Assembly (NCBI GenBank): GCA_001770815.1 | Contig: MESD01000199.1 | Coordinates: 1 to 45,374 of the forward strand | Source: Burkholderiales bacterium RIFCSPHIGHO2_12_FULL_69_20 | Lineage (GTDB): Bacteria; Pseudomonadota; Gammaproteobacteria; Burkholderiales; Burkholderiaceae_C | Length of the DNA stretch: 45,374 nt | Direction of reading: 5' to 3' | Shown here: piece after piece, positions 36,617 through 43,599 of the stretch | How positions within the stretch are numbered: position 1 is the first letter of the stretch | Layout: every line of letters begins with the position of its first letter | Made by a program: the position numbers and the translations under genes | Notes under the pieces: model-generated | What the model saw: the letters and a program-made list of their open reading frames with translations, nothing else | Database searches by the model: none | What the model was told of the DNA's origin: nothing

Positions 36617-36766
36617 ATGGCAAACGACCGACAAGGCTCGCTGTCCGGGTTGACCGAGCAGGAAGCACGGGAGTTTCACGGCATGTTCGTGAGCAGCTTC
36701 ATCGGCTTCACCGTGATCGCAATCGTCGCTCACGTGCTGGTGTGGAACTGGCGCTCGTGGCTGTAA
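36617..36766 (+). CDS. pufB: Light-harvesting LH1 beta subunit PufB
   Basis: 49 residues, typical for LH1 beta. It has a polar N-terminus ([14 protein letters not shown]), one membrane helix, and the BChl ligand His39 in VAHVLVW, ending in WRSWL. LH1 beta pairs with PufA to form the B870 ring around the reaction centre. A good ribosome site (AAAAAGGAA) precedes the ATG. The usual next gene, pufA, is displaced by an inserted 73-codon gene. Confidence 0.96.
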
Positions 36767-36808
36767 GCCGCTAGCCCTGTTCGTTACCCGCTCAACAAGG
36801 AGCAAACC

Positions 36809-37030
36809 ATGGCAGCTTCAACACTCAAGCCCCATTCAACACCTGCCGTCGACGGTGCGCTGTCGCCGGTGGTGTTCTGTGCCGGCTTCGCCGTGTTTCT
36901 GGTGATCGCCCTCGTCGCCCAGATGCTGACCATGCGGTGGCGGACCTGGTTGCCAGGCGCCGAGGGAGAACGGTCGTTGATCGGCGGCGTCAAGTCGGCG
37001 GTCTACACCTTCATGTCCTACATCCCCTAA
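36809..37030 (+). CDS. PufB-like 73-residue membrane protein lacking the BChl His (orf73)
   Basis: It lies between pufB and pufA with its own AAGGAG ribosome site, 42 bases after pufB and 13 before pufA. There is one membrane helix (about 20-42). Residues 23-48 align without gaps to PufB residues 24-49, with 13 of 26 identical, including FxxxF, VIA-VA, and the terminal WR-WL. The chlorophyll-binding His39 of PufB is Gln38 here. The N-terminus lacks the EFH segment. After WLPG there is a 25-residue tail, probably amphipathic, ending in [10 protein letters not shown] do not recognise a named family. It may be a diverged beta paralogue that fills a special place in LH1, or a PufQ- or PufX-like assembly factor. 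Confidence 0.85.
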
Positions 37031-37043
37031 GGAGGTATCCACC

Positions 37044-37232
37044 ATGTGGAGACTTTGGTTGTTGTTCGATCCGCGAAGGATCCTGGTTGCGCTCGGCACG
37101 TTCCTGTTCGGCCTGGCCATCCTCATCCACTTCATCCTGCTCAGCACGGACAAGTTCAACTGGCTCGATGGCGCGAGGGCGCCCGCCAAGGCGGCTGCCG
37201 TGCAGATGGAACCGCTGCAACCCAGGGCCTGA
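37044..37232 (+). CDS. pufA: Light-harvesting LH1 alpha subunit PufA
   Basis: 62 residues. The N-terminus [12 protein letters not shown] is the typical LH1 alpha opening. The helix carries the BChl ligand His29 ([10 protein letters not shown]), followed by FNWLDG. A 15-residue C-terminal tail is Ala/Pro-rich. A very strong AAGGAGG ribosome site precedes it. PufA and PufB bind B870 bacteriochlorophyll in the core antenna. Confidence 0.96.
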
Positions 37233-37366: not shown

Positions 37367-38191
37367 ATGGCCATGCTCAGCTTTGAAAAGAAGTACCGCG
37401 TGCGCGGCGGCACCCTGCTCGGGGGCGACCTGTTCGACTTCTGGGTCGGGCCGTTCTACGTCGGGTTCTTCGGCGTCACCAGTGCGTTCTTCGCGATCCT
37501 GGGCACGCTGCTGATCATCTGGGGCGCGGCGATGGGGCCCACCTGGAACCTCTGGCAGATCAACATCGCGCCACCCGACCTGAGCTACGGGCTGCGCCTG
37601 GCGCCGATGGCCGAGGGCGGGCTGTGGCAGATCGTCTCGATCTGCGCGCTGGGCGCGTTCGTTTCGTGGGCGCTGCGCGAGGTCGAGATCTGCCGCAAGC
37701 TGGGCATGGGCCTGCATGTGCCCATCGCCTTCGGCTTCGCGATCCTGGCGTACTTCACGCTGGTGTTCATCCGCCCGCTGCTGCTGGGCGCCTGGGGCCA
37801 TGGCTTCCCGTACGGGATCATGAGCCACCTCGACTGGGTCTCGAACACCGGCTACCAGTACCTGCACTTCCACTACAACCCGGCGCACATGGTGGCGATC
37901 AGCTTCTTCTTCGCCACCGCCTTCGCGCTGTCGTTGCACGGTGGGCTGATCCTGGCCATGACCAACCCGGCCACCGGCGAGCCGGTGAAGACGCCCGAGC
38001 ACGAGAACACCTTCTTCCGCGACACCATCGGCTACTCGATCGGCTCGCTGGGCATCCACCGTCTGGGCCTGTTCCTGGCGCTGTCGGCGGCCTTCTGGAG
38101 CGCGGTCTGCATCGTCATCAGCGGGCCCTTCTGGACCCGCGGCTGGCCCGAGTGGTGGGGCTGGTGGCTCAGCCTTCCCGTCTGGAGGTGA
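37367..38191 (+). CDS. pufL: Photosynthetic reaction centre L subunit PufL
   Basis: 274 residues with five membrane helices. Landmarks are REVEIC (Glu-L104 equivalent), [23 protein letters not shown] with the His ligands of BChl and iron, and GIHRLGL with the second iron His. At the QB site the sequence is HENTFFRD: Glu-L212 is kept but L213 is Asn instead of the Asp of Rhodobacter. The start ATG 37367 gives [15 protein letters not shown], as expected. It binds the special pair, pheophytin and quinone with PufM. pufM follows after an unusually long 130-base gap that holds a REP-like element. Confidence 0.97.
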
Positions 38192-38321: not shown

Positions 38322-39296
38322 ATGGCTGAGTACCAGAACATCTTCACCCGGGTGCAGGTGCATGCGCCGTCCTACCCCGGCGTGCCGTTGCCCTACCGGG
38401 GCGAGAACGAGCAGCGGGCCGGCGGGCCGATCCACCTGCACCTCCTGGGGCGCATCGGCGATGCGCAGCTGGGGCCGATCTACCTCGGTTGGCTGGGCGT
38501 GGTTTCGCTGATCTGCGGCTTCATCGCCTTCGAGATCATCGGCCTGAACATGCTGGCCCAGGTGAACTGGGACCCGATCCAGTTCGTGCGCCAGCTGTTC
38601 TGGCTGGGGCTGGAGCCGCCGCCGCCCGAGTATGGGCTGAAGATACCGCCGCTGGCCAAGGGCGGCTGGTGGCTGATGGCGGGCTTCTTCCTCACGCTGG
38701 CCATCCTGCTGTGGTGGGTGCGCATGTACCGCCGCGCCCGCGCGCTGGGCATCGGCACGCACGTGCCCTGGGCCTTCGCCGCGGCGATCTGGCTGTACCT
38801 GGTGCTGGGCTTCATCCGCCCGGTGATGCTGGGCCAGTGGAGCGAGGCGGTGCCCTTCGGCATCTTTCCGCACCTGGACTGGACGGCCGCGTTCTCGCTG
38901 CGTTACGGCAACCTGTTCTACAACCCGTTCCACATGCTGTCGATCGCCTTCCTGTACGGCTCGGCGCTGCTGTTCGCGATGCACGGCGCCACCATCCTGG
39001 CGGTCAGCCGCTTCGGCGGCGAGCGCGAGATCGAGCAGATCTACGACCGCGGCACCGCCAGCGAACGCGCTGCGCTGTTCTGGCGCTGGACCATGGGCTT
39101 CAACGCCACGATGGAGTCGATCCACCGCTGGGCCTGGTGGTTTGCGGTGCTCACGCCGCTGACCGGCGGCATCGGCATCCTGCTGACCGGCACCGTGGTC
39201 GACAACTGGTACCTCTGGGCGGTGCAGCACGGCGTGGCGCCGTCCTACCCGGCCGTCTTCCCCACCGGCGCCGATCCGGCCCTGTTGCCCAAGTGA
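38322..39296 (+). CDS. pufM: Photosynthetic reaction centre M subunit PufM
   Basis: 324 residues with five membrane helices. Landmarks are [33 protein letters not shown] (special-pair His and Tyr-M210 equivalent), [18 protein letters not shown] with an iron His, and ESIHRWAWW with the other. The position equivalent to Asn-M44 of Rhodobacter is Asp (RIGDAQ). The C-terminal extension (about 17 residues after VAPSY) is common in centres that carry a tetraheme cytochrome, encoded next as pufC. It starts 31 bases after a TGAGAG boundary of the inserted element. Confidence 0.97.
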
Positions 39297-43031: not shown

Positions 43032-43310
43032 CTACGGCTTGCCGGTCGGGGCCTTCGCGATGAGCACGGTGGCCGCCTCGGTGCCGGTCGGTGCCGCAGC
43101 CAGTGGTGCGGTCATCGTCGTGGTGTTGGCCGCGGCCTTGGCCGGCATGGCGGCCGCCACGGCGGCCTTGCCGCTGTAGTACGCGGGGTACCAGGCGGTG
43201 GTGGTCAGCACGGCGGCATGCACCGCCAGCGCGATCACGGTCACGCCGCCCAGGAACAGCGGCAGACCGACGGTGGGCTTGACCACCAGCCAGATTTTTC
43301 CTTGATTAAT
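43032..43310 (-). CDS. pucA: Light-harvesting LH2 alpha subunit PucA, ATT start
   Basis: 92 residues if translation starts at ATT 43310-43308. The frame upstream is closed by TAG at 43316-43314 and has no ATG. Reading from ATT gives the conserved N-terminus (M)NQGKIW..VVKP, places the BChl ligand at His31 as in known LH2 alpha, and puts Tyr44-Tyr45 at the B850 hydrogen-bond sites. AGGGA lies 7 bases upstream. A GTG at 43286 would cut off the first eight residues, including the one that ligates B800 BChl. About 45 residues of Ala/Pro/Thr-rich tail follow the helix, longer than in most LH2 alphas. It lies 11 bases after pucB. Confidence 0.9.
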
Positions 43311-43321
43311 GGTCTATCCCT

Positions 43322-43477
43322 TCAGTGCAGCCAAGGGGTGTAGATGTACGCCAGCAGGTGCGCCAGCGCGGCGATGAAGCCGAAAATGCGGGTGCCCTCG
43401 ATGACGTGGCGATGCAGTTCTTCGCTTTCGGCCAAGGTCAGCCCGGTCGGCCAGACCCTGTTCGGATCGATGTCCAT
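43322..43477 (-). CDS. pucB: Light-harvesting LH2 beta subunit PucB
   Basis: 51 residues: N-terminal polar region ending GLTLAESEELHRHVI, one membrane helix with BChl ligand His40 (LAHLLAY), and the end YTPWLH. ATG 43477 has TAGGAG upstream. It pairs with PucA in the peripheral B800-850 antenna. It is the first gene of pucBA and lies on the same strand as acsF-puhE, 122 bases after puhE. Confidence 0.95.
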   Translation of the reverse strand: MDIDPNRVWPTGLTLAESEELHRHVIEGTRIFGFIAALAHLLAYIYTPWLH

Positions 43478-43599
43478 TCCGATTCTCCTAGTCAATGTTT
43501 CCGTCTTTACCGTGCTGAACCCGCACGTGGGTAGGGGGTGGCTCTTGCGGCCACTTGGCAGTCAGCGACTTGGGGGTCGCGTGTCCGGTGAAATCATGT
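43478..43599 (-). promoter_or_regulatory. pucBA upstream region
   Basis: 122 bases between puhE and pucB. No exact TGT-N12-ACA occurs. There is a direct-oriented pair TGT-N12-TGT on the plus strand (43582-43599), that is, only one arm of the palindrome matches. I could not place a convincing sigma70 promoter. Regulation by PpsR is possible but not shown by the sequence. Confidence 0.35.

Follow-up and report, generated by a model that had tools for sequence, protein, structure and literature searches.

An LH1-beta-like protein lacking the ligand histidine, encoded between pufB and pufA in phototrophic Burkholderiales

We find that the puf operon in a 45,374-nucleotide stretch of Burkholderiales DNA (hereafter the window) encodes, between pufB and pufA, a small protein, here called X, which profile comparisons identify as a homolog of LH1 beta, a beta paralog in which the bacteriochlorophyll (BChl) ligand His has been replaced. 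X belongs to a conserved family, and as far as we have found this LH1-beta-derived accessory is new as a family in the literature and databases searched. We tentatively propose, with a probability of roughly 0.45, that X may derive from beta and serve the RC-LH1 core as a subunit or as an assembly partner. The relevant features of the window are as follows.

36617–36766, + strand: pufB, His-bearing short-tailed LH1 beta (NCBIfam pufB, 79.3 bits)
36797–36802, + strand: AAGGAG, Shine-Dalgarno-like site of X (read from the sequence)
36809–37030, + strand: X, LH1-beta-like protein without the His, 73 amino acids (ORF list, family profile searches, hhalign)
36920–36922, + strand: CAG codon for Gln38 of X, aligned with the BChl-ligand His of PufB
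36953–37027, + strand: X codons 49–73, conserved tail PGAEG..S..GVK.AVYTFMS, with a second predicted helix at residues 56–70
37030–37035, + strand: AGGAGG of pufA; overlaps TAA, the stop codon of X (37028–37030); like arrangement in 67 of 88 X loci
37044–37232, + strand: pufA, LH1 alpha (NCBIfam pufA, 75 bits)
37367–38191, + strand: pufL (ORF; 137.1 bits with the model of its paralog pufM)
38322–39296, + strand: pufM (556 bits to TIGR01115)

The X reading frame opens with ATG, and the initial annotation had correctly described it as a 73-codon gene with its own AAGGAG site lying between pufB and pufA; its picture of a small puf-operon protein with one helix also stands. The AlphaFold model of X, which is of low confidence (mean pLDDT 65.5), places a helix at residues 13–47 and a second helix at 56–70 in the tail, and a Foldseek search of the PDB with this low-confidence model returned no match. 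Elsewhere in the window, 43032–43301 and 43322–43495, both on the minus strand, hold a second alpha/beta antenna pair, both members of which exceed the Pfam LHC cut-off and which we take, by sequence, to be LH2 (pucBA).

The kinship of X with LH1 beta is apparent at several levels of comparison. Residues 23–48 of X align without gaps to residues 24–49 of PufB with 13 of 26 identical, placing Gln38 of X at the position of PufB His39; shuffling the PufB segment 20,000 times with its composition preserved gave at most 9 identities and never 13, and blastp gives the pair an E-value of 2.2e-8. When X was searched against the PDB with phmmer, LH1 beta chains ranked first, and the best match in both the phmmer and the profile search, 8z81_B (phmmer E 1.9e-8), aligns into the X tail; no chain found by the profile search of the PDB is X itself. 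In hhalign comparisons, made after identical rows were dropped (leaving 86 of 88 X and 73 of 89 short betas), X matched the long-tailed beta of Burkholderiales over its full length (E 6.7e-26, 72 columns), six non-Burkholderiales long betas at E 3e-18, and short betas at E 3.9e-11. The same method gave E 0.0082 (probability 4.9%) against LH1 alpha and E 0.083 (0.7%) against PufX, controls that rule out a merely generic helix likeness, which the initial annotation had named as a ground for refutation. A long-beta HMM likewise scores the 88 X sequences at 31.4–78.3 bits and LH1 alpha at no more than 7.4 bits. The earlier suggestion that X is a beta duplicate is thus upheld by the profile alignment, as is the view that it lies outside named families: in Pfam and NCBIfam scans no curated family matched the window protein above its cut-off, with 15.2 bits against the 23 required by PF00556 and 17.3 against the 61 required by the NCBIfam PufB model (NF040862). 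Across the alignment of 21 X used as query for our profile searches (alignment A1), the PufB model matched 11 members, and a phage holin model matched 3 with E-values up to 1, which we take as chance.

Unlike LH1 beta, X lacks the ligand His and also the N-terminal SGLTxxEAxEFH motif with its second His. Long-tailed LH1 betas (8z81_B, 7xxf_B and those of G088, G589 and G576) share with X the single helix, the WRxWLPG junction, the tail and a full-length alignment. In a tree of beta and X sequences, X forms one side of a branch at 86/94 that is not starred and rests on few columns, while PufQ-position proteins (see below) appear as long branches; G464 contributes one X and one short beta to it, alongside 48 of the 88 X and 32 of the 89 short betas, making 49 and 33 rows, respectively.

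X is widespread among phototrophic Burkholderiales, as our surveys of increasing breadth indicate. A1 excludes L038 and L039, copies of L010 and L011, as well as L019 and L049, which are His-bearing long-tailed betas. A first search, with a permissive threshold, matched 21 of 100 related genomes, betas and chance matches included, and a scan of named contigs from close relatives matched 12 contigs (e.g. an Aquabacterium MAG, Rubrivivax pictus and Comamonadaceae MAGs), 11 of them X loci under Burkholderiales, Comamonadaceae or betaproteobacterial titles and one a long-tailed beta (Elioraea). Among 399 genomes of the window's family, 64 have pufM, of which 54 have X, 7 a long-tailed beta without X and 1 (G174) a short beta without X, with 2 left unsettled. 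The order sample (318 genomes) has pufM in 40, 37 of them outside the family; these include 26 with X, 1 with an X-like gene (G464), 5 with a long-tailed beta without X, 3 (G481, G598, G628) with a short beta without X, and 2 cut by contig ends. In total, of the 101 pufM-bearing Burkholderiales sampled, 81 have X and 12 a long-tailed beta, 4 combine a short beta with the absence of X, and 4 are left unassigned (G267, G429, G557, G706). This distribution rules out a local insertion or a chance reading frame, and the one-off insertion implied by the initial annotation gives way to a conserved family; the gene order pufB-X-pufA, for which a survey of pufB-pufA spacing had been suggested, was found in every X locus read.

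The 88 X sequences analyzed here come from the family sample (54), the order sample (30) and four other genomes (G005, G006, G017, G018). G464, whose contig ends in pufA, stands outside this set, G576 was counted as a long beta since its His is present, and G056 and G402 were placed among the short betas after their sequences were read. No X was found outside Burkholderiales in a 398-genome sample of the phylum that was unscreened for pufM; 15 genomes from outside the order gave matches there, a His-bearing beta in every case, together with two PufQ-position proteins. Two X-like matches, at 22.1 bits in G035 and 20.9 bits in G331, are put down to chance, since the search for pufM matched neither genome.

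Several loci are unusual in their own right. Those of G487 (L122), G006 (L204) and G005 (L205) carry X together with an atypical PufA (MWR[FY]WR[VI][IV]DPRKAI...), and as the window's genus includes both G005 and G006, this suggests that puf segments have been swapped between lineages. The X-like gene of G464 (L202), whose contig ends soon after it, has a tail ending in SVIPLMFM, between the X and the long-beta/PufQ-like tail types. At G429:C3:110000-114800 (L221), pufM is accompanied by an incompletely matched pufL, and a motif search upstream found no pufA or pufB.

Loss of the ligand is nearly uniform across the family. The claim that PufB His39 is replaced was borne out in the window, where the codon is CAG, and the ligand residue is other than His in 87 of the 88 X. 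Across 86 distinct X sequences the column holds Gln in 61, Thr in 9, Leu in 5, Lys in 3 and other residues in 8 (Ala, Ser, Cys and Gly occur), and Trp is found nine residues further on, at the position of the H-bonding Trp of beta, in 77; every beta scorable by pattern (86 short and 18 long) has both the His and the Trp. A single X of the 88, from G151 (L185), has His at the ligand column (VGHLLTMNW). Conservation within X is greatest at the junction, the mean entropy rising from 0.64 bits in WRxWLPGAEG to 1.35 in the tail, 1.86 in the helix and 2.98 in the N-terminus. Over 20 hand-chosen genome pairs, pufB has a median pN/pS of 0.02, pufA of 0.16 and X of 0.20 (19 pairs for X, the remaining one lacking synonymous changes); the summed values are 0.09, 0.16 and 0.26 in the same order. 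Because pN/pS is below 1, X is constrained; it is under purifying selection, evolving faster than, and being less constrained than, both pufB and pufA.

The 25-residue tail noted earlier is indeed present, although its description as an addition to X is doubtful. LH1 betas with both the His and a long tail are present in several Burkholderiales and, within the phylum sample, in phototrophs of other groups; together with the PDB alignments that run into the tail, they contradict the idea that the tail is a novelty of X. In 12 related Burkholderiales that lack X, the His-bearing beta has a tail that can be aligned to that of X, and a whole-genome search with the X profile lists a single match in each, the beta itself. 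The tails that resemble the X tail are those of G576 (LPGAEGYTSMLDGVKAAANTITPYMMS), G589 and G088, while those of the seven long betas in the window's family differ more (LPGxxGYA...DAK...). Conversely, all 88 X loci have a short beta and none has a long-tailed one. This mutual exclusion gives a Fisher value of 1e-14, in a table whose short-beta loci without X include G174 and not G481, G598 or G628, but the value is not independent evidence because the PufL tree gives too few supported independent contrasts: X and long-beta states are interleaved in it, with 1 contrast on starred (well-supported) branches and 8 in the best Burkholderiales PufL tree. The PufL tree for the exclusion test omits rows G429 and G267, and the trees omit G481, G598 and G628.

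From these sequence comparisons, it is more likely that the tail is ancestral rather than added and that the pigment-binding beta became shorter. The probable course is duplication of a long-tailed beta, after which one copy kept the His and lost the tail while X kept the tail and lost the His. The alternative, that X and the long betas gained tails of similar sequence separately, is compatible with the shallow PufL and beta/X trees. The two arrangements, a tailed beta in one case and a short beta plus X in the other, resemble a division of labour after gene duplication.

X is also closely tied to pufA. The gap between the two genes is 10–22 nt (median 12) across the 88 loci, and X and alpha are probably made together, since in 67 loci the X stop codon adjoins or overlaps the Shine-Dalgarno core of pufA, which starts no more than 4 nt from the start of that codon. 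The long-tailed betas of the 12 genomes without X lie 11–12 nt before pufA. A gene in the same place has been mentioned in Roseateles depolymerans: the available excerpts of PMC10037100 place ORF74 (RD2015_RS05155; 74 codons by its name) between pufB (RS05150) and pufA (RS05160), on the major 1-kb puf transcript and co-transcribed with pufBA, and list it among the three loci with the greatest changes under carbon starvation. We infer from its place and length that ORF74, known to us from this description rather than its sequence, is X; those excerpts state neither a function nor a beta kinship for it. In the open PubMed Central literature, to the extent that its texts were available, this was the sole mention found, with no function or structure for X, and a description elsewhere is possible.

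Small accessory proteins of the RC-LH1 core, such as we propose X to be, are known as PufX, protein-W, gamma and gamma-like LH1 polypeptides (PMC10214105, PMC9640540, as excerpted). X was set beside protein-W and gamma by description, and the sequence comparison covered PufX, for which the hhalign probability of 0.7% with two PufX sequences indicates no kinship and rules out X being PufX. The Rhodopila gamma-like polypeptide, according to the excerpts available, differs from X in having 22 residues and the opposite orientation. PufQ is a closer parallel, being, like X, a small puf-operon protein with one helix, no ligand His and a conserved C-terminus; unlike X, whose place in the loci read is between pufB and pufA, pufQ is located between bchZ and pufB, and its product lacks LPGAEG. 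The four short-beta Burkholderiales without X (G174, G481, G598, G628) all have a small one-helix PufQ-like ORF between bchZ and pufB, and an ORF at the PufQ position is also found in G768, G1092 and G845 (long-beta genomes of the phylum sample), in Methylobacterium aquaticum and in Thiodictyon. Four such divergent proteins were compared with X.

G768, L142:1471-1755, - strand: PufQ-position protein
G1092, L144:1456-1701, + strand: PufQ-position protein
Thiodictyon, L168:1620-1841, + strand: PufQ-position protein
G174, L088:3394-3663, - strand: PufQ-position protein

These proteins show profile similarity to X (hhalign E 2.3e-14), to the long-tailed beta (E 1.9e-15 over 64 columns to the last residue) and to Rhodobacterales PufQ (E 9.3e-6, probability 83%). 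In a Pfam scan one of them, from G768, reaches 15.4 bits to PufQ (cut-off 22.1) and the other three match nothing, and the G768 protein also matches NCBIfam PufB at E 0.0012, below its cut-off. Two Rhodobacterales PufQ used as controls score 91.9 and 133.3 bits to PF05398, and a search of 23 genomes with that model gave nothing above cut-off, so the model misses the divergent PufQ-position proteins. A search of 11 whole genomes with a PufQ-like profile ranked first, in G174, the protein that the profile itself contains and, in each of the remaining ten genomes, a puf-operon gene (LH1 beta, X or a PufQ-position ORF); unrelated matches reached 22.9 bits at most. X may accordingly substitute for PufQ; alternatively, PufQ may be an ancient relative of beta in its own right. 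The C-terminus of PufQ is predicted to be cytoplasmic (PMC5725709, excerpt) and that of LH1 polypeptides is on the periplasmic side (PMC10214105, excerpt), which counts against PufQ as an old beta relative.

These observations bear on what X does. The main rival to a core subunit, which we judge rather unlikely, is that X does PufQ-like work as a small membrane protein made with LH1, steering tetrapyrrole flow or pigment hand-over without being a permanent part of the core. The role of PufQ is itself disputed. That four short-beta Burkholderiales have a PufQ-like gene instead of X points to another role, and the two replace each other, a PufQ-like upstream ORF being visible in 0 of 88 X loci and 4 of 4 short-beta loci without X, though the contigs of at least G593 and G554 are too short to tell. 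X is also the best match to the PufQ-like profile in the four X-bearing genomes searched whole (G000, G008, G006, G324), and Rhodobacter PufQ, as excerpted in PMC5725709, is a one-helix protein with a conserved C-terminus. Yet X is closer to the long-tailed beta (6.7e-26) than to the PufQ-position proteins (2.3e-14), and its likeness to Rhodobacterales PufQ is weak (E 6.9e-5, probability 63%), again below that to the long beta. The window X and the other 20 members of A1 do not have PF05398 among their matches, so membership in that family is rejected; with respect to the PufQ relationship that the initial annotation had allowed for, the Pfam comparison gives no match while the alignment to PufQ-position proteins does. 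Moreover, the X/PufQ-like set is not universal, because the 12 long-beta Burkholderiales and Novosphingobium (L169), which has a short beta, lack both genes.

Two further readings keep X in the operon for other reasons. X might still bind BChl through Gln or water and serve as a spectrally tuned beta at some ring positions; Gln can ligate chlorophyll Mg elsewhere, and the frequent Gln (61 of 86) and downstream Trp (77 of 86) would suit such a role, but the spread of the ligand column to Thr, Leu, Ala, Lys, Ser, Cys and Gly, where scorable betas all have His and Trp, makes it improbable. We regard as very improbable indeed that the product of X matters little and that its reading frame persists as a means of linking translation of pufA to ribosomes arriving from upstream: 67 of the 88 X stop codons do lie beside the ribosome site of pufA, but X is conserved at the residue level (pN/pS 0.20) and the long-tailed beta genes lie equally near pufA without X.

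As a beta-derived core subunit or assembly partner, X would be synthesised together with alpha, its stop codon lying in or beside the pufA ribosome site, and would insert in the beta topology with its C-terminus periplasmic. It would then join the RC-LH1 core, or an assembly intermediate of it, as a beta-like helix without the normal BChl and provide the periplasmic tail no longer carried by beta. In the simplest version, one or a few copies would hold a particular position in the LH1 ring; a helix lacking BChl at that point would terminate or open the ring of pigments close to where quinone leaves, and the ring-gap or quinone-channel role suggested by the initial annotation would be one form of this reading. 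Weighing against the core reading are the four short-beta Burkholderiales that manage without X, its faster evolution than that of pufB and pufA, the few independent origins behind the exclusion between X and the long beta, the His in the X of G151, and the failure of the PDB profile and Foldseek searches to find an X chain or a match. A broader and somewhat doubtful possibility is that X and, earlier, PufQ are both 'blind' LH1 betas, duplicates that lost the ligand and kept the tail; Burkholderiales would then carry the tail on exactly one of three interchangeable carriers (a long-tailed beta, X or a PufQ-like protein), and it would be needed for core assembly or quinone exit.

In conclusion, if X is part of the core complex, one subunit is absent from the RC-LH1 models of a large group of phototrophs, and X would offer a natural test of the long beta tail and of a pigment-free beta position. 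If X is instead PufQ-like, it would give PufQ a structural ancestry in LH1 beta and offer a way to test the tie between pigment supply and antenna synthesis, and should the 'blind' beta reading be true, PufQ would be a relative of LH1 beta that acts on the nascent antenna.
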